Shown here piece after piece: positions 32,956-46,051 of a stretch of 46,051 nucleotides of DNA. Each line of letters begins with the position of its first letter. Position 1 is the stretch's first letter. A program made the translations under genes and the position numbers. This stretch comes from Patescibacteria group bacterium. Lineage in GTDB: Bacteria > Patescibacteriota > Patescibacteriia > 2-12-FULL-60-25. The notes under the pieces are model-generated. The model was given only the letters and a program-made list of their open reading frames with translations, made no database searches and was not told the origin of the DNA. The stretch spans positions 1 through 46,051 of the forward strand of contig JAGOTP010000009.1 in the NCBI GenBank assembly GCA_018061755.1. Reading direction: 5' to 3'.

Positions 32956-35900
32956 ATGGACTCTACGCGTTCTTTCCGTCGCATCGCCTTTATCCTCGTC
33001 ACTGCTGTGACGGGGTTAGCGCTTTGTTTGGGGCCGATTGAGCCAGCTCTGGCTCAGGCAACGAAGGAAATGCCAATTCCTTTCAATGTGCCATCGCCCA
33101 TGGCGGTTACCATTTCGGCCAACTTGCCAGAGGCAGCTAATCAAACCTACAAAAACATCTATACAGAATTGACACGCGCGGGTGTGATCGCCCTCACAAA
33201 TGCCACACAGCTGTTTTTGGGACAGATGGCCTACGATGCGGCAGAATATATTGCGACGGGTGGCAAAGGACAGGGCAAGCTCTTTTTTGATGGCAAGTTC
33301 GGGGAATATCTGACGAACGTGGGAAGTGACGCAGCGGGAGAATTCATGGCAAGTTTGAGTGATTCAAGCTTCTTCCGTGGCGTTGGGTTCAATCTGTGTC
33401 AGCCTAGAGATCCAGCCACTCTCTTGCGTTTGCAGGTGTCTTTGGGTGATTTGGGGAGTCAGCTCTTTCCTTCTTCATCTGATCTAAACTTGCCGAGCGC
33501 GGGTGGCTTGGCTTCGAGTTTGGGCTTCACACCGAATCAATACAATCGTCCACGACCACGTTGTGAATTCCAATCGGTTTTGGATAACTACGACACCTTG
33601 TTCCGTACCATGAGCGATGGGGACGTGATTCGTAACTTGGAACGGAGCTTTGATCCAGCGCTCAGTCAATTAGGAACGATTACGAGCGTATATAACCGCT
33701 TTCTGACGGATGTTCAGCGTCAGGTGAACGACGCTGCTTCTCAGCGTGAGGAGGGGAATGGTTTCCGCCCAGTTGAAGGATTGATCTCGGGCAACATCCG
33801 TACACCAGCTTCTGTTGTTGCAGAAGCTACAAACGAACAGATCGTCCGCAAGCCAGGAGCGGATCAGACGGCCATCGTTTCAAGCATGTTATCGAATGCT
33901 TGGGAGGCGGGTCCCATTCAGCTCGCAATTTATACCGGTTCGATTTTCGTGAATACGTTGGCCTCGAAGTTCATGCAGCGTATTTTTGAGAAGGGTTTAG
34001 GTGGTTCGTTTACACCTTCGCTTTCACTCGACTTGTCTGGCCCAGATTCGGTGGCTGTCTATGGAAAAACCGATGCGCGCAATGCCAATATCGATTTGAA
34101 AAATCCACCACCACAACAAGTAGCAGACTACGATGTTGTGTCTCAGATGCAGACTTGTTTGCCAGCTCAGCGTGGAACCTGGAATTGTGTCATGGATCAA
34201 TCGTTGGTTCAGGCGGTTCGTTCGAAGACACAAGAGGGGGGCGTTACGGTGCGTGAAGCCTTGGAACGCAACATGTTGCATGGCGATTGGCGTTTGATTC
34301 CAACCGTCCGCACACGGGAAAACCAAGACGACCAGTGTTATACCTACGCTTACTGTGCGGGCAACCTGCAAAAGATGCGTCTCATGCGTATCTTGCCGGT
34401 TGGTTTTGAACTGGCTGCGAATAGTGTAAATAACGTTCGACGTTGTGATACGCCAGAAGGTTGTGTGACGCTGTCGGAAGTAGTGAAAAATTTTGCTGCT
34501 TGTAATGACAATGGACAGCTCGATGACGCCCACCCTTGGTGTCACTTGATTGATCCGAACTGGGTTGTCACCTCTTTCCCTCAGCAATGTAGTTTGACGG
34601 GCTTCAGCGATACGTTGGTCTCGAGCAAGCTGCCGATTCGCAAAGAGGAATGTCAGGATGTGAAGACTTGTTTATCTCGCAACGATCGTGGCGAGTGTGT
34701 CGGAGGCTATGGTTATTGTATGGCGGAGCGTTCAGTCTACCGCTTCTCGGCCGATGTCTGTCCGGCCTACGCAGCCAGTTGTCGTATCTATACGAATAGC
34801 GCCGGAACGAAAGTTGGCTACTTGCGCAATACGATTGATCGCGCGGCTTGTGATGCCTCAAACGCAGGTTGTCTTTGGTACTCTACGCGTCGTGCCACAA
34901 GCACGTCTGAAACAGATGATTGGACGGCGAGCACTTCGACGGGTGAGCGCATGTACTTCAAGGCTGCGACGGCGGGTCAAGGGGTGGCCACCAAAGGTCT
35001 TGAGACCTGTCCAGCTTCTGAGGAGGGTTGTACGCGTTTGTATAATTTCACGCCGGGTAAAGCGGCTTTGAACTTGATGATCAACGGTTCATTTGAATCG
35101 GAAGATACAACGACTTCGACGGATGCGTTAGCCTGGCGCACGCCGGGTCTTGCGGCCCTGTCCGCGCCTTATTTTGAGGAGATGCGTAATGCTCGTTTGA
35201 CGGATTGGACGTCTGAAACGGCTTTCGTTGGTGGAAAATCAATTAAGTTACAGGGAACGGCAGGAATCGTGCCGCAGTCTGTCTGGCAGTCGGTTGAGAT
35301 CGTACCGGGACGTGTCTATAGCTTCTCGACGTACGCTCGTTCGATGGCTGGATCTGCTTCATTGAACGTAGGTGTTATCCCTTATCGTAATTCAGATGGT
35401 TCTGGGTCTGAGACGGAAATCGAGTTGCGTACGCGTTATCATTCCTCGCTTGAGTTGTCGACCTATAATATGGCCGACCGTACGTATAATGCTTATAACA
35501 AAGCCTATACGTCTGAGCTTACGACCGATTGGGCACGTCATGAATTCTCGTTTGTGGCTCCAACTTCGTCTCGCTATGCCTATATCACCTTAGGTGGCGT
35601 CAACGTCTTAGTTGATGGCATTCAACTAGAGGAAGGGGAGTACGCCACGCCGTTCGTTGAGACCTTTAGCTCTGGTTTGCCGACAGTCTTTATGAAGGTC
35701 GCACCGGATGAATTGCAGTGTTCACGTCCGGTGACCGACAGAAGTCGTTCTGCTTTGTGTGGGAACTTTGCTCAGACATGTAGTCAATTGGAGGCGGGTT
35801 GTCAGGGCTACCAGGATCAAGAAGGTGGTCAGCAGATCCCAGCTATTCTGTCTGAAAATGACCTGTGTCCAGCCATGTGTGTTGGATACGCTGAATATCG

Positions 35901-38900
35901 TAAAGCGCCGTCTTCGTTCGACTTGGTCAAGGATATTGATCCACGCTTCAGCGATCCAGAGGAGGCAACTTCCACCTATTTCATCCCTGGGACGGCTGGT
36001 CAGTGTACACAGCAAGATGTTGGTTGTGAGGAATTCACCTTGTTGGATGATAACGGTGCGTCTGATGGCGCCACGGCGGCCTACAGCTATTTGCGTGCCT
36101 GTGAAAAACCAGGAACTGACTCCGAAACCTACTTTACGTGGGAAGGGGCGGATACGGTTGGTTATCAGCTGCGAACCTGGAGCTTGAAGCGTGATACCGG
36201 TCCTTTCGACCTCGGTCCACGTATTTTGACGAAGATTCAAGCGGATCAAATCAGCTTCAAGGAACCAGATACCTGTAACGAAGGCAGTTGGAGAACGGCA
36301 GCTGATCCGGATTGTCGTCAATTCTACGATGCTCGTGGCCGTATCTTCTATCGCTATTTCTCACAGACGATTCTTTCAGCGAATGAATGTACGAATGTCC
36401 GTTTGACGCGCAGCAGTCGCAATGATTGTGAACGTACCGGTGGTCGTTACAATGAACGTGGTGAATGTACCTACGGTGCTTATCTGCCAGAAAGTCGCTC
36501 GTGTAACGCGAGAGCCACCAGCTGTCGTATGTATATGGGAGCGAGTGCTGGAAACACGCAAGCCACCTTCCGTCAGTCGTTCCGTGAAGACTTTGCTCCG
36601 TTCGGTCGTCGTGGTTTGACCACTTCGACGGAAGCGCTGTTGGTGGGCGATGTGTCTGTCAAAGTGGGAGATCCGGGTGTGTCTGGTGAGCCAGAACGAC
36701 CTCTGGGTTATGCGCAAACACGTGCTCTCTTCGATTCGAGTGAAACGGCTCTATATCGCGCGACATTCTGGGCTAAAGCGCCAGCTACAAGTACGAGCAT
36801 CACAGTTCGCACCACGCGTGAAGATGGAGGCGGCGAAGCCGTGATCGGTACGGTCCGTCTTACTCCAGAGTGGCAGCGTTATACAGTCGGTCTGTTCGAA
36901 GGCGCTCCAAACGCTTCTAGTACCTATATTGTCTTTACCGCTCCGCTCTTGCGCAGCGCTGGCTTCGGCTTCTACTTTGACGAAGTGTCTGTGACTCGTG
37001 TGCAGGATGTGGTCTATGTTCGAAACAATACGTGGACGACCCCAGCTCAGTGTGATCAGGGATTAGATGGAGCGGATGAACCACAAGCCATGTTAAACTG
37101 TAAGGCTTACACCAATCGTGTCGGTCAGACGGTTAACGCGCGTCGCTTCACTCGTTTGTGTCGTGAGACGGCTATTGGTTGTAGTGCCTTCGTGGATACA
37201 CGCAACACGGATGAAACGTATGCTCGTCGCTTTGTTCAGCGGAACCCGATCGACCCAACTCGTCATGTACCATCGGTCGTAGTTCGTCCAGCTGATCGCT
37301 ACATCTACTTGATTGATGATCCAGCTAAGCGTTGCAACAGTCAGAACATGAGCTGTCGCGCCTTTGGAAAACCGAAATTGGCCCCAGACCGTCAGCGTTT
37401 GGATGTCGAACGTCCGTATGAAACGGTTTACTACAAAGATGATATTACGCGTTACGACAGCGCTTTGTGTAAGCCATCGGAAGCCTTCTGTGCGGAATTC
37501 AAGTTCGGGACGGTCAAGGAATATTTCCGCGATCCAGCCACCAGCGTTTGTGAATATCGTCAACCAGTTACAACAGAAGCTTCAGCTGGAGTACCGAGTG
37601 AGACCTTGCTAGGAGGTTGGTACGTAAAGGGTTCAGACGCGACACCTTGTTATCCAAGTATTTTGGAAAACGGTCGTACCTATGGTATCGCTCGTTCTGG
37701 TGATCAGACCTATAAGGGGTACGTCGGTGCCTGTGAAGAAGCGGCGGGTGAATGTATCGAGCTGCGTGATATCAACGACACGAGTGATCCAGCTCAACGC
37801 GCAGGCAAGTCCTATTTCTACATTAAGAATGACCGTCTGGATGTCTCGACCTGTAATGGTCAGGTAGACCTTGGTCGTGGTTGTGTACTCTTCCGCGACA
37901 TGAGTAGTGGTGCGCTAACCTACAACGCTCGTGCCAGTTATGAGCAGTACAAGACACAGGGCTACAAACCGGTCACACCAGTCGATTGTCGAAATAATCC
38001 GGAAAATCCGGCCTGTGTTCAAGGTGGGCGTTGTCGTGGGACGCGTGCAACGGTGACACGTCGTATCAGCGGTGATCCAGGCACGGCCTATAACAATGAT
38101 CAAGACGCTATTCTTCAAGTTCGTGGTACAGCAGTACCTTGGACAGGGGATGGAATCTGTCGCACGGATGACGACTGTCGTGTGGTGCCGAACGTCACGA
38201 ACCCTACGGTAATTACCTACAACGTAAACAATGGTGGTGCCTTGGAGCGTCGTACGACTTCTACTGCAGTTGTAGTCACGGAAGCTAACTGTCAGGCTCC
38301 GCCACCAGATCAAGCCAACGATGCCAACCTTTTGTTGAAGGTTTCGGTTGATCGTGAATGTTCGCAGTGGTTAGGTTGTCGCAGTTCTGAAACGGTGCTC
38401 GATCCTTCGACGAACAAGTACAAGGAAATTTGTAGTGTGCCAGCTCTGTGTGACAAGGGATCAGGTGTTGCGAACGATCAATTCTGTGCCAGTTATGTTG
38501 ATCGTCGTTCGACTTCGACAGAGCCTATTCTGGCTCAGGGCCAGGTGCTGACTGCTTCCTTGTATGCCGGTCGTGGTCTGGGATTAGGCCAGCGTGATTA
38601 CTCTGGTTACGCTATTCCGGACTCGTTCCAAGTCATGGACTTACAGAACGTGCGGGTGGCAGTCGAGGGTGCTAAGAATATTCCAGATGCTGCCTTCCGT
38701 TTGTCGCAGGAATATCGTTTGACGGCGGCGATTCCGATGCCTCCATTGCGTCGTATCACGGTCGGCGGAGTCACTCGTTATCAGCACACGCTTCGTCCAG
38801 GGCTGAATCAGGCCAAGATTTTGAACGAATACCAATGGTCGGATGCCTCTTCTGATGGTTTGGCTATCTCGAATCCAACGCTTGCCTTGTGTAAGCATGT

Positions 38901-41900
38901 TTCCTCTGGTCGTATCGGTTACTATATTCCGAGTCAGGCGGCTGATGACCGTCGATCGGCAAATTGTTATTTACCGGTCAACACGTCTTCTGAGTTGTTC
39001 AACTTCGATAAAGTTTCTCAGACATTCTCAGCGAGTGTCGATGCGGCTAACGCAGCCTTATTGACACGTGCTTATCCTCCCGCTGAATGTCGCGCTCAAC
39101 CAGAACAGGATGCTCCATATCCAGCTTCCTTCACAACGGATTGGGACATGACGAAGAATCCACCAAAACCATTGCGCCGCTTGGCTGGCTTCGCATCCGC
39201 CAACACCTGTGAATTTGGCGAAGACTGCAGCTGTACCTATAAGCGTGTCGAATACGAAAGTTCGCCAGCGGTGAAGTTCTACAATCAATACTCACAATCC
39301 AGTCCGCCTGGTGTGTGTGTTGGTGGTCCTCGCGATGGTCAGTCGTGTGTGCCGAGTAAGATCTTCAATGCAGGAACGAATGTTACAACGGCTCCAGCGG
39401 ATCCAGATGGTGGACAGACGGATGAGGCGACCAGTAATTCTGGTGCTCGTGCCAACGCGGTGAATGATGCTAGTTCCGAGCAGTTGTGTGGTCCGCCGGA
39501 GCTTGGTGGGCGCTGTATGCCGTTCAAGGCCGTCACTATCATTCGTGGGACGTTCGGCAGCTGTTTGGAGCGTGACTTGAGTCGTACGATCGGCCAAAAT
39601 AAAGATCTGACACCTTGTCTGACCTGGAATCCGACCCTGCTTCTAAACGGCGACAAAGATCCATATCACTACGAGCAATCGGCTGGCTACATGCCTCCAC
39701 AAAACTCCGGTCAGTACTACTGTCTCTCCAATGCTCGTAAACCAAAAACTGTTCCTTTGAACTCCAATTTCTTCTTCAAGACCCCGGGCGAAGGCGGGAC
39801 ATACTCTGGCAGAATCACCAAGCTGGGTTACTTTGATGGCCTCACGTCCGATGGAGATCTGGCGGAAGGGAATGATCTTGGTGCCCGTATCGATGGCGGC
39901 GAACCGGCTGGCTCAAATGTGTCATATGAATGTGAGCTGACGGATGATGACCAGGACGTGGGAGGATTCTCTGCTGATTTTTCGGCCTTACGTTTGATCA
40001 ATACTGGCCGAGGAGCTCGTCAGTACTGGGAAACATTCTTCCGTATTAGTCCGGCTGCCTTTGCTAAGGCATACCATGGCCGTGACGCAACGACGGAAAA
40101 TGACATCATGCTTTCCATTTCGGATCGAAGTATTGGATATATTGGTCTAAGTCCCATTAGCTCGCCGAACTCAACGGCTCGTTTGGCCTGTGCTTATAAC
40201 CAAGATTGGGTAGACGGTATCAGTACGCCTGATTATACGGACATCAATGCAGTTCATGGTCAGGACTCGCAATGGCAGCAAAAGTTCAATGCGGATTTCA
40301 AGGGCGTCTTAACCCGCTCGTCTGAAGATCTCATTATCGATCCGGCCTCAGCGTCTGGTGCTTCAAACGTCTTGCGTGATCCTTGTATTGAGACGACCGC
40401 CGCCTACCGTGGTCAGACTTGCTACTTCAAGACCTGGGAAACCGGCTACCGCACGGTGGAAGGGGATGATAAGACGAAATTCGTTGGCTTGTCGGCTGGG
40501 AATCGGGAAGATGGCTCGATTAGTCTGACGGGCTCACGCCGAACTTTCGAAACACTTCGTATTTCTACCTACAACGCCAAATGTGACCAGACAAAGCCGT
40601 ACTTCTCAGTGCGTGCCGTGTTCCAGTCGAAGATAAATACGGGTGATCGCGCTCCATTACCACGCAGTGAATTCGGGACGATTGCTACTCAGTGGACCAT
40701 GGCTGGTTTCTGGGTCACGGCCTGCGGCGGAGCTTCTACGGACGAGCATTACATCTACATGCGGCCTCGCGTAGAATACAGCGATGTCTGTCGTGAATTG
40801 GCGGAAGTTGTGAGCCGTGACTCGAAGCAAGATGCTGCCTTTACGGATCGAGTCTGGAAAGATGGAAACTTCACAATTCCAGTCTTGGGTATCAGCTACA
40901 ATGCTCGTTACTCGCCGTTCTCGAGCGCCTTGAATACGCGTAATCCTGGCGTTGATCCGCTCTTCCAGACGGGTCAGGAAGTAGTCGGCTACTCTCGCTT
41001 GAATCCTCCAACGTTCCTTGCAAGCGGCTACCGCACCTACTACTCCAACGACCCTGCGCCAAAGGATAAGTGGGCTCATCTCACGAACATCTTCGCGCGT
41101 GTTTATAACATCTATAAATACCACGAATCACAGGTAGCAAACGGTCAAACAGCTTGTCTTGCGGGTCCAAACAAGGGGCAGAAGTGTACACCATCGGGTG
41201 ATGGTACATCTCCCGACTGTAGTTCTAATGGTCGTTGTGATGCTAGTCGTCTGGCCGCTTCTGGTGTGACTGAATTTACGGCTGAACGTTGTAATGCCTT
41301 ATCTGGTATCAATGCTGGTCTCACCTGTTTGCCGGGTGAGCGGCGCGAAGATTGTCATATCGCCCCGATGCAGCTCACTGGAAGCGGTGTAGATTTGCGT
41401 ACTCTTCCTTGTCTAACGCAGCCAGGCTGGAGAAGAGAAGGTGATCTTTGGATCAATGGAAGTGCGCCGGGGGTTGCCCAATCGGCAGCTGCTACAGCGG
41501 GAGCCTTCCGCTGTCCAAACACTCCTGCCTCCCTACGTCGAGATGTTATAGGAAACGCCTGGGGTGGCCTCGCTTGGACGGCTGGTGTTCGTGGTCATCT
41601 GTGCAGTGCTCCAACGGATCAGGGAGAAATCGTAGAAGGCAGTGAGGAATGCCCAGAGCGTATTGTGAATGGATTAGAAATTGCGCCAGCTTCCGGTGCC
41701 CCTATCACAGCTCAGGGTGATCGAAGAATGCAAGTTCAATGTGTGCCTAGAACGGCAGGAGTCGCCATTACGCGAACGGCGCCTGGTCGTTGTCGTGTCG
41801 TGGTTCCACCTTATAGTATCAACGTCCCTGGTAAGCCTGCCTTTGAGATGGCTGGTTTCTCAACCAACCCAGATTCTGAAGGGTATGCCTACGGTGAATG

Positions 41901-44118
41901 TACGACGACTGAAGATTGCTCTTTCACGATGGATAACTACTATTTGTCGAATGCGCCAACCATGTTCGACACTCGTATGTTTGCCAGTAGTCGCTCGCTG
42001 CAGATGTCTTCTACAGCAGATACGCGACGTGGGAGCTTCACGGCGGGGGGCTGTGGTACTTGGCCTCAGAGCATCTGTCGTGGACTCGCTTCGGGTGGAA
42101 TGTGGATTGTGAATACGGGAAACCCTCGTTTGGAGAACGCGAGTGCGGTTTACGAAGCGCCATCCTATACAACGGCAGGACGTGGCGTAAACCTTGGGAG
42201 AGATTTCCGTCAGATTGAATATACGTTCCGTTATCCGGGAGCTGTTCAGGCGACGGGTTATCAGGGAATGATCCTAGTCGGTGCGTGTATCCAAGCGGAT
42301 AATCCTCGCAGCGGTGCCAGTACGTCTCGTGGTCTGTGTACGGGTGGTACGCGTGACGGCCGCGTCTGTGGAACTGATTCCGACTGTGTAGCGGTTGATT
42401 CGGTAGCCGATCGACCATTGAGTCGCTGTGGTCCGGTGTCTACTCGTGCCAGTGATAACGCTCCTTGGGAGCCGGTTTCTGAATGTAGAATAAATGACAC
42501 AAGTTTGCAGCCCGCTGGTTCGCCAGGTGTGAACTTGAACAATGACAACAACATCTGTACGCATGAACAGGGGTATGTGCCGCGTATCGATCTTTGTCCA
42601 AATCCGAATGATCAATACTGTGGCTTGATCGCTTACAACGTCCGTCGTCCGCTTGATTCAGTTGCTACAGCGGCTCCAGCCCGCTTGCCGACGGATGTGA
42701 CACTGGGTCTTCATAAGCTGCCCTACTTGCTCGGTGAAGGCGACGTGGATGCACCAGATACCTATAGCGCTACCTACCTCCCACGTCCTCCGATGGTCGC
42801 CGCTCCAGACATTCGAAACTGTCCTTCTCCTGGTAAGTGTCAGGTTCAGGGTCTGAATAAGATGTCGCTTGACGGTTCGTCTGAGGGAATCGTGAGTGTT
42901 CCAAGTAGCCAAGCTAAGAGCGTCCTGCGTTTCTACGCCTGGGCCGCTCACAACCAGATGCCGCTTCGTTCGATCAATCTTGATTGGGGTGATGGACAAG
43001 TACAGGCCATCAACGACGGAAAACTCAAGAACCACAAACCTTACTGTGCGGTTCGCAAAGAGTGTGTGACGATCAGTCGTAGCGCTGGTGTATCTCGTGA
43101 CAAGGTCGATTCAAATGGGCTGACTTGTAACACAGACAACGACTGTCCGACGGGTGGTGGTAGCTGTCAGGCGATCGGTACCTGCCGAGACAATACGGGC
43201 ATTCTGTGTACGAACGATTCACAGTGTCGCAGTTCATCTTCCAGTAAAGACGTCTGTCAGATCCGTAATTTCTTCGGAAATAGTGCAGAAGCCTGTGAAG
43301 AAAACTACTTCGAGTTTACTCACCTCTATACCTGTAACGGTCCGGGTAGCTTGCCACTCTGTCGTCGTCCAGCGTTGACGGGTCGCACGACTGGTGGTCA
43401 AGAAGTGGTTCCAGCCAGTGTCGAATTGACTGGTGGTTGTCACTACGGTCGCTACGAAGCCGACATGATGAACGGTCGACAAACGACGGATCGTGCCACC
43501 TGCGATGCCTCGGCTGGTGTCAGTCCGCTGGTCGCCTGTATCCGCTCAGTCAACCAGCGTCTCGGTTTGACCGGCACGGCTGCTCTGGCTGAAACGACGG
43601 AGGCTGCCACTGCCAATGGAATCTCATGTGTGACACGTATTCCTGAGACTGGAACGAACGCCAACCACTGTGAACGCGATCCAAACCGCATCTGTAACCT
43701 CGCTGATGTAAACAGCTGTGCTCCAGGCGATCGCTGTCTGCCAAACTTGGCTCCAACCGGTGGTTGCTGGGATGATCAAGTCCAAGTCTGTCGCTTCACT
43801 CCTCGTGTCATGGTCCAAGACAACTGGGGTTGGTGTACGGGAGAATGTCGAACGACGAGAGACAGTGGGGGAGCGGCAGCTGATGATCGTAACCCTTCCG
43901 CTGGAGGACCGATTGCGCTGCATCCGTACGGTGGGTGTTATGCCGCGACGCCGGTGGGTGCTGAGAAGACGATCATTGATAACGCTGCAAACTTCAATGA
44001 TAGAGTTCCTTTCCGAAATGAGTGCAGAACAAGTCTTCCAACATCGGGCGCTGGTAATCAGGAGCTAAGACCTTGGATTGTTTATCCGGGCAGCATCAAT
44101 CTTCGAAGTAGTCGCTAA
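32956..44118 (+). CDS. giant secreted cysteine-rich protein (3720 residues)
   Basis: The largest gene here, about 24% of the window and roughly 400 kDa. A signal peptide (RIAFILVTAVTGLALCLG, cleavage near ALA at ~33) precedes a helical N-terminal region (~35-340) with a LFLGQMAYDAAEYIATGGKG segment and a Cys pair, a type I recall from other CPR giant proteins. I count roughly 137 cysteines, mostly TGT codons. From ~480 to ~1600 a C-x5-GC-like motif recurs (near 684, 941, 1017, 1402). Two jelly-roll segments resembling CBM4_9 modules lie at ~705-885 and ~1208-1340. The C-terminal half has a CxGGxxxGxxC motif (near 2121, 2734, 3127) and many CxxDxDC knots. A PKD-like NLDWGDG at ~3342 and its FTHLY end at ~3454 are separated by a Cys-rich insertion. 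No C-terminal membrane anchor is visible. Adhesion to a host or matrix is inferred only. Confidence 0.85.
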   Translation: MDSTRSFRRIAFILVTAVTGLALCLGPIEPALAQATKEMPIPFNVPSPMAVTISANLPEAANQTYKNIYTELTRAGVIALTNATQLFLGQMAYDAAEYIATGGKGQGKLFFDGKFGEYLTNVGSDAAGEFMASLSDSSFFRGVGFNLCQPRDPATLLRLQVSLGDLGSQLFPSSSDLNLPSAGGLASSLGFTPNQYNRPRPRCEFQSVLDNYDTLFRTMSDGDVIRNLERSFDPALSQLGTITSVYNRFLTDVQRQVNDAASQREEGNGFRPVEGLISGNIRTPASVVAEATNEQIVRKPGADQTAIVSSMLSNAWEAGPIQLAIYTGSIFVNTLASKFMQRIFEKGLGGSFTPSLSLDLSGPDSVAVYGKTDARNANIDLKNPPPQQVADYDVVSQMQTCLPAQRGTWNCVMDQSLVQAVRSKTQEGGVTVREALERNMLHGDWRLIPTVRTRENQDDQCYTYAYCAGNLQKMRLMRILPVGFELAANSVNNVRRCDTPEGCVTLSEVVKNFAACNDNGQLDDAHPWCHLIDPNWVVTSFPQQCSLTGFSDTLVSSKLPIRKEECQDVKTCLSRNDRGECVGGYGYCMAERSVYRFSADVCPAYAASCRIYTNSAGTKVGYLRNTIDRAACDASNAGCLWYSTRRATSTSETDDWTASTSTGERMYFKAATAGQGVATKGLETCPASEEGCTRLYNFTPGKAALNLMINGSFESEDTTTSTDALAWRTPGLAALSAPYFEEMRNARLTDWTSETAFVGGKSIKLQGTAGIVPQSVWQSVEIVPGRVYSFSTYARSMAGSASLNVGVIPYRNSDGSGSETEIELRTRYHSSLELSTYNMADRTYNAYNKAYTSELTTDWARHEFSFVAPTSSRYAYITLGGVNVLVDGIQLEEGEYATPFVETFSSGLPTVFMKVAPDELQCSRPVTDRSRSALCGNFAQTCSQLEAGCQGYQDQEGGQQIPAILSENDLCPAMCVGYAEYRKAPSSFDLVKDIDPRFSDPEEATSTYFIPGTAGQCTQQDVGCEEFTLLDDNGASDGATAAYSYLRACEKPGTDSETYFTWEGADTVGYQLRTWSLKRDTGPFDLGPRILTKIQADQISFKEPDTCNEGSWRTAADPDCRQFYDARGRIFYRYFSQTILSANECTNVRLTRSSRNDCERTGGRYNERGECTYGAYLPESRSCNARATSCRMYMGASAGNTQATFRQSFREDFAPFGRRGLTTSTEALLVGDVSVKVGDPGVSGEPERPLGYAQTRALFDSSETALYRATFWAKAPATSTSITVRTTREDGGGEAVIGTVRLTPEWQRYTVGLFEGAPNASSTYIVFTAPLLRSAGFGFYFDEVSVTRVQDVVYVRNNTWTTPAQCDQGLDGADEPQAMLNCKAYTNRVGQTVNARRFTRLCRETAIGCSAFVDTRNTDETYARRFVQRNPIDPTRHVPSVVVRPADRYIYLIDDPAKRCNSQNMSCRAFGKPKLAPDRQRLDVERPYETVYYKDDITRYDSALCKPSEAFCAEFKFGTVKEYFRDPATSVCEYRQPVTTEASAGVPSETLLGGWYVKGSDATPCYPSILENGRTYGIARSGDQTYKGYVGACEEAAGECIELRDINDTSDPAQRAGKSYFYIKNDRLDVSTCNGQVDLGRGCVLFRDMSSGALTYNARASYEQYKTQGYKPVTPVDCRNNPENPACVQGGRCRGTRATVTRRISGDPGTAYNNDQDAILQVRGTAVPWTGDGICRTDDDCRVVPNVTNPTVITYNVNNGGALERRTTSTAVVVTEANCQAPPPDQANDANLLLKVSVDRECSQWLGCRSSETVLDPSTNKYKEICSVPALCDKGSGVANDQFCASYVDRRSTSTEPILAQGQVLTASLYAGRGLGLGQRDYSGYAIPDSFQVMDLQNVRVAVEGAKNIPDAAFRLSQEYRLTAAIPMPPLRRITVGGVTRYQHTLRPGLNQAKILNEYQWSDASSDGLAISNPTLALCKHVSSGRIGYYIPSQAADDRRSANCYLPVNTSSELFNFDKVSQTFSASVDAANAALLTRAYPPAECRAQPEQDAPYPASFTTDWDMTKNPPKPLRRLAGFASANTCEFGEDCSCTYKRVEYESSPAVKFYNQYSQSSPPGVCVGGPRDGQSCVPSKIFNAGTNVTTAPADPDGGQTDEATSNSGARANAVNDASSEQLCGPPELGGRCMPFKAVTIIRGTFGSCLERDLSRTIGQNKDLTPCLTWNPTLLLNGDKDPYHYEQSAGYMPPQNSGQYYCLSNARKPKTVPLNSNFFFKTPGEGGTYSGRITKLGYFDGLTSDGDLAEGNDLGARIDGGEPAGSNVSYECELTDDDQDVGGFSADFSALRLINTGRGARQYWETFFRISPAAFAKAYHGRDATTENDIMLSISDRSIGYIGLSPISSPNSTARLACAYNQDWVDGISTPDYTDINAVHGQDSQWQQKFNADFKGVLTRSSEDLIIDPASASGASNVLRDPCIETTAAYRGQTCYFKTWETGYRTVEGDDKTKFVGLSAGNREDGSISLTGSRRTFETLRISTYNAKCDQTKPYFSVRAVFQSKINTGDRAPLPRSEFGTIATQWTMAGFWVTACGGASTDEHYIYMRPRVEYSDVCRELAEVVSRDSKQDAAFTDRVWKDGNFTIPVLGISYNARYSPFSSALNTRNPGVDPLFQTGQEVVGYSRLNPPTFLASGYRTYYSNDPAPKDKWAHLTNIFARVYNIYKYHESQVANGQTACLAGPNKGQKCTPSGDGTSPDCSSNGRCDASRLAASGVTEFTAERCNALSGINAGLTCLPGERREDCHIAPMQLTGSGVDLRTLPCLTQPGWRREGDLWINGSAPGVAQSAAATAGAFRCPNTPASLRRDVIGNAWGGLAWTAGVRGHLCSAPTDQGEIVEGSEECPERIVNGLEIAPASGAPITAQGDRRMQVQCVPRTAGVAITRTAPGRCRVVVPPYSINVPGKPAFEMAGFSTNPDSEGYAYGECTTTEDCSFTMDNYYLSNAPTMFDTRMFASSRSLQMSSTADTRRGSFTAGGCGTWPQSICRGLASGGMWIVNTGNPRLENASAVYEAPSYTTAGRGVNLGRDFRQIEYTFRYPGAVQATGYQGMILVGACIQADNPRSGASTSRGLCTGGTRDGRVCGTDSDCVAVDSVADRPLSRCGPVSTRASDNAPWEPVSECRINDTSLQPAGSPGVNLNNDNNICTHEQGYVPRIDLCPNPNDQYCGLIAYNVRRPLDSVATAAPARLPTDVTLGLHKLPYLLGEGDVDAPDTYSATYLPRPPMVAAPDIRNCPSPGKCQVQGLNKMSLDGSSEGIVSVPSSQAKSVLRFYAWAAHNQMPLRSINLDWGDGQVQAINDGKLKNHKPYCAVRKECVTISRSAGVSRDKVDSNGLTCNTDNDCPTGGGSCQAIGTCRDNTGILCTNDSQCRSSSSSKDVCQIRNFFGNSAEACEENYFEFTHLYTCNGPGSLPLCRRPALTGRTTGGQEVVPASVELTGGCHYGRYEADMMNGRQTTDRATCDASAGVSPLVACIRSVNQRLGLTGTAALAETTEAATANGISCVTRIPETGTNANHCERDPNRICNLADVNSCAPGDRCLPNLAPTGGCWDDQVQVCRFTPRVMVQDNWGWCTGECRTTRDSGGAAADDRNPSAGGPIALHPYGGCYAATPVGAEKTIIDNAANFNDRVPFRNECRTSLPTSGAGNQELRPWIVYPGSINLRSSR

Positions 44119-44125
44119 TTCAAAT

Positions 44126-44167
44126 AATCAAAAAGTGAGCCATTATACGGTGGCTCACTTTTTGATT
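44126..44167. terminator. strong bidirectional terminator after the giant gene
   Basis: A perfect 17-bp stem (44126-44142 with 44151-44167) and an 8-nt loop, with AAAAA and TTTTT inside the base on either side. It begins 8 nt after the giant gene's stop codon. It may also limit readthrough from the lipoprotein gene. Confidence 0.93.
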
Positions 44168-44191
44168 TTAAAAAGCATATAAATAGCAAAA

Positions 44192-44222
44192 GACCTCCGC
44201 CGCGTGAATCGCGTCAGAGGTC
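44192..44222 (-). terminator. terminator of the GC-rich lipoprotein gene
   Basis: On the minus strand GACCTC (44222-44217) pairs with GAGGTC (44197-44192), with CGCG/CGCG nested inside, followed by TTTTG. The GC-rich hairpin differs in style from the AT-based terminators of the neighbours and marks the left edge of the GC-rich island. Confidence 0.65.
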
Positions 44223-44246
44223 CCTCGCCGTTCTTGGTGTCGAAGA

Positions 44247-44876
44247 TCACCGCGTGCAGATGCGGAGGACGCCGGTCGTCCTGTTCATGGGCATACCACC
44301 CTGCATTTGCAGCATGTCGGCGCACGAGCTGCACGTGCTGCCGGTCATGGTGTAGCGGAGGATCATCCTCGACCCGTCGCTCATAGGCTGCGACGCACAC
44401 TCGTTGCTGTGGCACTCGGTCCACACTCCCGGAAAGCCGAGCTCGGTGAGCGTGGCGCGTGTGCCGCGCTCACCGCAGATCGGCCTGACCGTGAAGGTCA
44501 TGAGCTGCTGCTCCGTGTTCTCGATGAACGTGACCGTCTGCGCCTGAGCCAGCATCGCCTGGCACATGAAGGCCGGGTCCGGGTTGCAGATGGACGCATC
44601 GTCAGCCACGCTCGCGTCCTCCGCCGCGTCCGTCCCCGCGTCGATCACGACGGGGTTGTCGGTCGGGGTGTCGGTGCTGGGGGGCACGTCCTTCGCGATG
44701 GCCGCGTCGGGCGTGGGGGTCGAGTCGGGCTGGGAGCCGTCCGCGGGGTCGCGGCGGTCGTCCGTCACCGACGTGCTGGAGTCTTCTCGAGGGCCAACTA
44801 CGTTGGAGCCCTCGATCCCGCACGCGGCCATGAGGGCCACGGCGAGGGCGATCAGAATCATTCGCAGCAGCTGCAT
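44247..44876 (-). CDS. putative lipoprotein in a GC-rich, foreign-looking island
   Basis: A 209-residue exported protein. The start at ATG 44876 is fixed by a full AGGAGG Shine-Dalgarno site 7 nt upstream, the best in the window. The signal peptide MQLLRMILIALAVALMAAC ends in a lipobox-like LMAAC, so Cys19 would be lipid-modified. Residues ~35-100 are an Asp/Pro/Ala/Thr-rich linker (for example PTPDAAIAKDVPPSTD, then DAGTDAAEDASVADDAS), a style typical of Myxococcota and related Deltaproteobacteria. The C-terminal ~105 residues hold eight cysteines, including CSSCADML. GC content is clearly higher than the rest of the window, with G/C-ending codons, whereas neighbouring genes use many A/T-ending codons. 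Overlapping plus-strand frames are by-products of the high GC. Recent transfer, or an assembly join, are the two explanations. Confidence 0.75.
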   Translation of the reverse strand: MQLLRMILIALAVALMAACGIEGSNVVGPREDSSTSVTDDRRDPADGSQPDSTPTPDAAIAKDVPPSTDTPTDNPVVIDAGTDAAEDASVADDASICNPDPAFMCQAMLAQAQTVTFIENTEQQLMTFTVRPICGERGTRATLTELGFPGVWTECHSNECASQPMSDGSRMILRYTMTGSTCSSCADMLQMQGGMPMNRTTGVLRICTR

Positions 44877-45168
44877 GTTGCAGCCTCCTCTTGGTGTGGC
44901 GCCCTTGGGGCGCACGGGTTGGAGACGAGCACGACGGTTGGCGGAATGCCTTGGTCGTACGAGAGATCTGAGCTGGGTTAAGCGGTTAAAGGCTTACCAG
45001 TTTAGACAAGAAAGGCGTTATAGTAGAGTCGAATTGTCCTTAAAGGTGCATACGAGGGCGCTGAGAAGCACTCCGTCGTCATGCTGAAAGGTACCATGGG
45101 ACCGATTATCTAAGCAAATAGGGGCGTTTTTGTCAAAAATCTAGAGCCTGAACCCAAGTAGAACTGCT
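44877..45168. other. intergenic region upstream of the lipoprotein gene and of nusA
   Basis: The first ~100 bases remain GC-rich and contain the Shine-Dalgarno site of the lipoprotein gene plus GGGCGCC-type inverted repeats. From about 44980 the composition returns to that of the host. On the minus strand a perfect TTGACA (45136-45131) is followed by GATAAT at a 20-nt spacing, a possible but poorly spaced promoter for the lipoprotein gene. A 31-codon frame on the minus strand (45097-45002) has no ribosome-binding site and no recognisable features. I see no RNA gene here. Confidence 0.5.
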
Positions 45169-45197
45169 TTGACATTTTTTCTCCAAATCCGCATACT
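45169..45197 (+). promoter_or_regulatory. consensus promoter upstream of nusA
   Basis: TTGACA (45169-45174), a 17-nt spacer and CATACT (45192-45197): perfect -35 and 4/6 -10. The predicted start near 45204 gives an ~85-nt leader. A second -10-like TACAAT at 45258-45263 lies closer to the gene but has no good -35. Confidence 0.7.
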
Positions 45198-45205
45198 AGG
45201 CCCTG

Positions 45206-45242
45206 AGTTGACTCGTTCCGGTGGGAGCGGGTCACTTTTTTT
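45206..45242 (+). terminator. terminator-like hairpin in the nusA leader (possible attenuator)
   Basis: A 13-pair stem with one bulged T (45206-45219 with 45224-45236), loop GGTG, followed by seven T (45236-45242). Two G-U pairs (45216/45227 and 45213/45230) would be A-C mismatches on the other strand, which supports the plus direction. CCCTGA (45201-45206) can pair with TCAGGG (45242-45247) just outside, enclosing the T-run. It sits between the consensus promoter and the nusA start, so unregulated termination here would silence nusA from that promoter. Confidence 0.65.
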
Positions 45243-45288
45243 CAGGGCTTAACTACCTACAATTTAACTTGTCTACAACCCAAACCTT

Positions 45289-46051
45289 ATGGCCAGTCCT
45301 ATTTCCCAAGCCATGCGTCAGATCGCGGATGAAAAGAATATTCCGTATGAGTCGGTTCTCGAGACCGTCGCAACGGCTCTGTCCGCCGCTTATCGCAAAG
45401 ATTTTGGCAATAAAAATCAGAATATCCAGGTCGAATTTGATCCGGAGAAATATGACGGCATGACGGGCGGGATCCGTGTCTTCGATGTGAAGCTTGTCAC
45501 GGAAGACATGAAATTGGAGGACGGGTATTTTGAACGCTTTGAAGCCGCCCATGCTCCAAAAAAGAAAGAACGCGATGAACGCGGTCGCGAACGTGCGCCT
45601 GAACCAGAGCCAACGCCGGTTGCGGCTGACGGTACAAGCGATGAGTTCAAGTTCAACCCAAAAACCATGGTCATGTTGTCGGACGCTCGCGATATCAAAT
45701 CCGATGCACGTGTCGGCGAAGAATTGCGCGTTGAGTTGACGGTGCCAGCCGCTTTCGGCCGCATGGCTGCTCAAACCGCCAAGCAAGTCATCTTACAGAA
45801 ATTACGCGAAGCCGAGCGCGGCGTGATTTTCAATGACTTCAAGGGTCGTGAAGGTGAATTGATGAACGTGATCGTTCAGCGCCGTGAAGGCCGTATGGTC
45901 TTGATTGATCTTGGTCGTGCGACAGGTGTGTTGTTGCCAGAAGATCAGATCGAAACCGAACGCTATTTCCCAGGTACGCGTATCAAGGCATTGTTGCGTG
46001 AAGTCAGTATGTCGACCCGTGGTCCAGAAATTCGTTTGACGCGTGCCGCGC
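45289..46051 (+). CDS. nusA: transcription termination/antitermination factor NusA, 3'-truncated by the window
   Basis: The first 254 codons, running off the right edge without a stop. The protein starts MASPISQAMRQIADEKNIP, then ESVLETVATALSAAYRKDFG, the N-terminal RNA-polymerase-binding domain. It continues with AAFGRMAAQTAKQVILQKLREAER, the linker helix before the S1 domain, and ELMNVIVQRREGRMVLIDLGRATGVLLPEDQI, the S1 fold, reaching GTRIKALLREV and STRGPEIRLTRA at the S1/KH boundary. A ~35-residue charged and Pro-rich insertion (PKKKERDERGRERAPEPEP, residues ~89-107, and the following stretch) enlarges the N-terminal domain compared with E. coli. NusA binds RNA polymerase and modulates pausing and termination. 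No Shine-Dalgarno site is visible. The leader contains a terminator-like hairpin. Confidence 0.95.
   Translation, partial: MASPISQAMRQIADEKNIPYESVLETVATALSAAYRKDFGNKNQNIQVEFDPEKYDGMTGGIRVFDVKLVTEDMKLEDGYFERFEAAHAPKKKERDERGRERAPEPEPTPVAADGTSDEFKFNPKTMVMLSDARDIKSDARVGEELRVELTVPAAFGRMAAQTAKQVILQKLREAERGVIFNDFKGREGELMNVIVQRREGRMVLIDLGRATGVLLPEDQIETERYFPGTRIKALLREVSMSTRGPEIRLTRAA

Follow-up and report, generated by a model that had tools for sequence, protein, structure and literature searches.

The window analyzed here, a stretch of 46,051 nucleotides that corresponds to contig C5 of a Patescibacteria genome (1.15 Mb in 37 contigs, 93% complete, 0.49% contamination), carries near its right end a GC-rich block with a single lipoprotein gene, and the question that this locus raises is whether the gene was acquired from another organism, was inherited, or was joined to its surroundings during assembly. 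An earlier note had described positions 44190 to 44980 as deviant in base composition and codon use, and both observations were confirmed. The GC content of the block is 0.664 (0.676 for the coding sequence) compared with a genome mean of 0.509, its tetranucleotide distance lies at the 99.0th percentile of 5,611 genome windows, and the GC3 value of the gene is 0.89 compared with a median of 0.51 for 565 open reading frames (ORFs) of at least 250 amino acids. GC content was 0.28 immediately to the left (44119–44189), 0.60, 0.68, and 0.62 in successive segments up to 44980, and 0.48 (44981–45107) and 0.43 (45108–45288) to the right. The block ranks only 20th highest among the 600-bp GC peaks of the genome. 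It is odd inside the window but ordinary for the genome.

The block encodes one complete lipoprotein, designated P0001, with the lipobox MAAC and with a linker of the composition described previously (Table 1). The protein has the n-region, hydrophobic core, and lipobox of a bacterial signal peptidase II substrate (MQLLRMILIALAVALMAAC, with Cys19 as the predicted lipidation site), and the signal peptidase II gene LspA is encoded in the genome. With MAAC and a GC3 of 0.89, P0001 is unlike the native lipoproteins of the lineage, which have GAGC and a GC3 near 0.5. The terminator was found to be a G+C-rich hairpin. Two other claims stood in part: the GC-rich block is real, but the unit runs past its right edge to a promoter at about 45136; and AGGAGG is present but ties as the best Shine-Dalgarno sequence of the window, 2 of the 28 window genes having this motif by the starts chosen. 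Judging from its anatomy, the likeliest function of P0001 would be to display a disulfide-bonded head on a flexible linker at the cell surface, where it would touch other cells. An AlphaFold model of P0001 alone had a pLDDT of 41.6.

Table 1. Features of the lipoprotein locus and its flanks (positions in the window).
Feature	Position	Strand	Basis or detail
CDS of 209-amino acid lipoprotein P0001	44247–44876 (stop codon 44247–44249)	-	ORF; GC3 0.89
Predicted signal peptide and lipobox LMAAC, residues 1–19, with Cys19 as predicted lipidation site	44820–44876	-	Sequence
Asp/Pro/Ala/Thr-rich linker, residues 20–96	44589–44819	-	Sequence, linker-style comparison
Head domain, residues 97–209, eight cysteines	44250–44588	-	Sequence; no Pfam or NCBIfam match
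Shine-Dalgarno sequence AGGAGG	44884–44889	-	Sequence
Terminator hairpin of lipoprotein gene	44188–44222	-	-23.7 kcal/mol, G+C-rich, four T
Putative promoter of lipoprotein gene	45108–45136	-	TTGACA (45131–45136), N17 ending in TGC, -10 TTAGAT (45108–45113), AATCG, GTC
5' leader of about 230 nt (231 nt folded)	44877–45107	-	Folding; z = -3.43
Giant 3720-amino acid gene, left border of slot	32956–44118	+	COOH-terminus conserved beside slot in relatives
17-bp inverted repeat, terminator of giant gene	44126–44167		Sequence
nusA promoter, divergent from lipoprotein promoter	45169–45197	+	TTGACA-N17-CATACT; sequence
nusA, runs off contig, right border of slot	45289–46051	+	Name from look of protein and conserved place

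Searches for relatives of P0001 covered protein families, mobile elements, and genomes. No match was obtained in a Pfam profile search or among NCBIfam families at an E value of ≤0.001, including the MXAN_6577-like family NF041328, and tblastn against plasmid and phage collections gave no relative. Among 96 related genomes, P0001 matched itself as well as eight other sequences at E values of 1e-3 or worse. A scan of GTDB contigs with exact 8-residue seeds, which detects close relatives only, yielded 51 seed stretches and no confirmed match, and viral contigs yielded six stretches, again with none confirmed. In 380 genomes of the class, three matches in addition to its own were found at E values of 1e-3 to 7e-3, two of them with internal stops and none convincing; close orthologues at the same locus, the sign of an old resident gene, were thus not encountered in these other Patescibacteria.

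We next consider how the block compares with the rest of the genome, for which 1,148,051 of 1,152,061 bases were analyzed. With an island defined by a GC content of at least 0.62 and an island ORF by a GC3 of at least 0.74, the genome contains 112 GC-rich islands, amounting to 89 kb or 7.8% of bases, and 79 island ORFs (such as L142:2864-3961 and L094:16410-17729), many of which encode secreted proteins or lipoproteins. The GC3 values of 1,074 ORFs have a mode at 0.50 to 0.55 and a long high tail. In four genomes of the family, the lipobox GAGC was present in 23 of 53 low-GC3 lipoproteins versus none of 34 high-GC3 lipoproteins (p = 1.9e-6), with 10 lipoproteins of GC3 0.66 to 0.72 left out of the count. 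Shine-Dalgarno sequences of five or six bases preceded 25 of 51 island ORFs with a GC3 of at least 0.8 versus 2 of 75 native genes (p = 3e-10), the native genes being those of a simple ORF caller and the score being inflated somewhat by the extra start codons of GC-rich ORFs; shuffling of the same 14-mers gave 4.0 and 1.8, respectively.

Transcription signals are described as a hallmark of genomic islands (PMC3309015). Many of the island ORFs were found to be preceded by an AT-rich promoter in which TTGACA is separated from TAtnnT by 17 nt, the last three of which are TGn, and in which GTY follows about five bases later. A strict form of this pattern (TTGACA-N13-15-TGnTAnnnT) was scored for a GC content of at least 0.60 at a distance of 150 to 550 nt. 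It occurs 23 times in the genome with enough flanking sequence, and such GC-rich DNA lay after 16 of these sites and before two; the base rate at the matching offset is 6% of windows. Addition of N4-6-GTY left 16 sites, 14 of which precede GC-rich DNA, and block-wise shuffles of the genome contained zero to three occurrences of the strict pattern. In a 400-kb sample of the related genome G018, GC-rich DNA followed 7 of 11 occurrences and preceded none, with the corresponding numbers for GC-rich DNA downstream being one of five in G002, two of four in G014, and none of two in G020. The out-of-family control, eight loci of about 12 kb with mixed GC content, was weak.

The leaders of island genes also have a common character. 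Relative to dinucleotide shuffles, they were more stable than native leaders (mean z of -2.34, n = 39, versus -0.89, n = 61; p = 9e-5) in a comparison that omitted island genes with a promoter score below 9.5, a GC3 below 0.75, or a leader shorter than 40 nt, as well as 14 of 75 native genes. The corresponding values for G018 were -3.82 (n = 10) and -1.39 (n = 13; p = 0.006), with G002 and G014 having too few leaders. The GC content of the leader is 0.47 over the 5' half and increases to 0.55 over the 3' half (n = 26), a pattern to be expected if a foreign Shine-Dalgarno sequence and ORF had been joined to a promoter and upper leader of native origin. Hairpin sequences vary from gene to gene. 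Some island leaders contain very long hairpins with G-U pairs and z values down to -7.1 (L151 upstream of 6284; L050 upstream of 15197 and 16795), a feature that suggests that these hairpins function as RNA.

For P0001, the leader folds at -70.8 kcal/mol, a value matched by 1 of 200 shuffles, and the shift in GC content at about 44980 falls within it. The unit shows TTGACA, TG, N5-GTC, a folded leader, AGGAGG, and a high GC3, all as in the island class, but its -10 element is weak, fails TAnnnT, and is absent among the 23 strict matches. Membership of the P0001 unit in the island promoter class is likely but not certain.

Single-gene units with hairpins, in which many unrelated ORFs share one arrangement, call to mind a mobile gene cassette, integron-like or of another kind, that carries a recombination site of its own. 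The hairpins of the present units, however, are located toward the 5' side, within the leader, and have different sequences, and the units are scattered rather than arrayed. The best match to the integron integrase TIGR02249 in the genome was below the curated cut-off, whereas the same search was positive in 14 of 14 control genomes. We consider a cassette of this type to be very improbable. A search for target-site duplications found only short repeats of the kind that arise by chance.

The block lies between a giant gene and an ORF that we take to be nusA from the look of its protein and its conserved place. Within the family, the slot between these two genes keeps its position but varies in what it contains. 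Both of its borders are present in 22 family genomes including the present one (G000), with a slot length that ranges from 106 to 124 nt in G035, G019, and G020, where it is empty, up to 11 kb in G012. GC-rich lipoproteins with a lipobox occupy 7 of the 22 bounded slots (G000, G012, G027, G002, G018, G015, and G028), and the slot of G001, in which the gap is open, also contains one. Of 33 family genomes, 15 have a minus-strand TTGACA no more than 260 nt upstream of nusA, compared with 2.0 expected from shuffles, which indicates that this place has long had two divergent promoters and a minus-strand gene that changes.

These observations bear on the possibility that P0001 belongs to an old resident locus, inherited vertically under strong diversifying selection, in which GC-rich coding would be native to genes of this class and divergence would have made the head unrecognizable. 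Lipoprotein genes occupy a similar position beside the giant gene in several genera, and the P0001 gene has a promoter and leader of native type. Moreover, G018 and G027, members of one genus (L058 and L055), share a promoter stretch of about 30 identical bases and a signal-plus-linker of 74 amino acids (E = 1e-13) but have unrelated heads, and such retention of promoter, signal, and linker without the head also fits an inherited, fast-evolving gene. On the other hand, the similarity of P0001 to the other slot lipoproteins is confined to the low-complexity linker, with E values of 0.02 or worse, three of the slots are empty, and the lipobox class, Shine-Dalgarno usage, and GC3 are all unlike those of native genes. 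Vertical inheritance therefore appears unlikely, although it deserves serious weight.

Other features of the slot and its borders were also apparent. In other relatives, the slot contains a fast-evolving minus-strand gene for a protein of about 245 amino acids that recurs among genera (L063:10891-11622 and L068:11296-12033). This protein begins like FPVV.SPAMQQ, and of three such proteins tested, one showed weak similarity to an AAA lid, the only Pfam hint obtained. The giant protein is Cys-rich and has no Pfam family above the cut-off. Upstream of nusA (45209–45234), a T-rich run is preceded by a hairpin whose core is (G)ACTCGTTC(T/C)GG...GAACGGGT, and its stem motifs, as a loose set, are present in 30 of 33 family genomes. 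An Rfam search of the window at an E value of ≤1 gave chance matches only, none of which fit this hairpin, which is possibly an autoregulatory leader of nusA.

The earlier note had offered a chimeric contig as the sober alternative, and the sharp GC edges, together with the appearance of a short-read assembly, are what a chimera or contamination of the bin would share with the present locus. The end of C5 (45925–46051) is identical to the first 127 bases of C21 (L052:1-127), so that nusA continues on C21. This overlap of exactly 127 bases looks like the result of de Bruijn assembly with that word length, in which case a chimera could have formed only if such a word were shared at each of the two edges. 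Against a chimera, a native-type promoter and leader, probably of the genome-wide class, span the GC edge, the slot pattern recurs in relatives whose genomes were assembled separately, 105 of the 112 islands are situated more than 1 kb away from either contig end, and contamination is low. Misassembly is not supported by these data and is extremely doubtful.

With regard to the source of the gene, the proposed Myxococcota type of the linker was consistent with a comparison of linker style, based on small numbers, in which 200 kb of a Sandaracinus plasmid contained 19 ORFs with a lipobox, 3 of them for lipoproteins with an Asp/Pro linker, and four other high-GC replicons (Gemmatirosa, Embleya, Burkholderia, and Xanthomonas; 300 kb) contained 16, none of them of this kind; no donor, however, was found. 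P0001 resembles the lipoproteins of Sandaracinus amylolyticus plasmid pSa001 in its lipobox, long Asp/Pro/Ala linker, and high GC3, and it differs from them in its head, which is without sequence homology. The Cys-rich MXAN_6577-like family NF041328, which P0001 itself does not match, was detected in 2 of 74 island proteins (74 of the 79 island ORFs were searched, with two that crossed a piece edge and three by choice left out), and in 12 of 41 genomes of the same family versus 3 of 55 others and none of 14 control genomes. An MXAN_6577-like island protein matched only two records, both of Sandaracinus, among 72,556 plasmids, and a GTDB scan with it confirmed nothing. Two other island-type proteins had no plasmid match. 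A kinase matched 654 records, with Sandaracinus giving the best E value among the 25 matches listed, a weak indication. An island M20 peptidase, by contrast, resembles proteobacterial and actinobacterial plasmid genes, the best being that of Xanthomonas (47%); this result lends no support to Myxococcota as the source of the peptidase gene, and a single donor phylum for all islands is thus not supported. A Myxococcota-like source is suggested by the Asp/Pro linker together with the MXAN_6577-like proteins, with such a donor being plausible but unproven.

A recent single transfer from a Myxococcota host or neighbor would account for the high GC3, for a Shine-Dalgarno sequence and terminator of the gene's own, and for the lack of a relative in the class. 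The occurrence of about 80 similar ORFs, a recurrent slot, and a promoter of resident type instead suggest many events and some domestication, and the donor was not found; this explanation seems improbable. Of the recent acquisition suggested earlier, transfer as such is likely, but a single recent event is unproven, given the ~80 such ORFs and the slot lipoproteins of sister genera. Horizontal transfer of up to 13% of genome length has been described for 125 aquifer Patescibacteria genomes (PMC12455944), with the transfers there being mostly from Patescibacteria to Patescibacteria; the accessible text of that study contains no GC-rich single-gene units with a common promoter, no fixed slot, and no occurrence of the string "Myxococc." Patescibacteria and Myxococcota have been reported together in activated sludge, with no mention of transfer between them in the available portions of PMC10469934 and PMC9530719. 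Literature searches, mainly of open-access papers, in which Patescibacteria or Uhrbacteria was combined with Myxococcota or lipoproteins revealed no report of such transfer.

The explanation that we favor, with some confidence, is that the GC-rich gene for P0001, an exported lipoprotein, was acquired laterally and then domesticated in a slot of fast turnover, with the giant Cys-rich gene on one side and nusA on the other. Lipobox type, Shine-Dalgarno usage, linker style, and the presence of MXAN_6577-like proteins in the genome argue for a foreign origin beyond base composition. A gene from a high-GC donor, probably Myxococcota-like, would have arrived with its own Shine-Dalgarno sequence and terminator. 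The anatomy of the unit, in which the foreign ORF is preceded by a promoter and leader of native type, is predicted to reflect insertion of this ORF behind a minus-strand promoter that was already resident. The genome also encodes ComEC and DprA, which together with signal peptidase II make DNA uptake and lipoprotein maturation possible. The product would be lipidated at Cys19 and displayed on the surface by its presumably disordered Asp/Pro linker, with the eight cysteines of the head probably held in disulfides. At contacts with other cells, it may have a binding or decoy role and be subject to frequent replacement.

Several findings count against such domesticated capture. The -10 element TTAGAT falls outside the strict set, and neither a donor nor a homologue of P0001 was found. 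Islands retain a high GC3 in all of the genera sampled, although amelioration would be expected for old transfers. In addition, the excess of perfect TTGACA was not significant in G018 (16 of 38 versus 4 of 17, p = 0.23) or, likewise, in G002 and G014.

We tentatively extend domesticated capture to the family as a whole, a proposal that is appreciably less probable than not. These ultra-small bacteria may run a standing capture program, in which single GC-rich genes, many of them for Myxococcota-style surface lipoproteins, enter intergenic slots behind a standard native promoter and a long folded leader, and so form a quickly renewed, coexpressed set that would be used on a Myxococcota-like host, prey, or predator. 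A promoter and leader common to the islands would reveal the means by which a streamlined genome renders GC-rich genes of foreign origin readable, and would provide a motif with which to find such genes in other genomes. Hosts are known for only a minority of Patescibacteria, and foreign surface genes that are spread over the genome and have a recognizable source would point to the partner organism.
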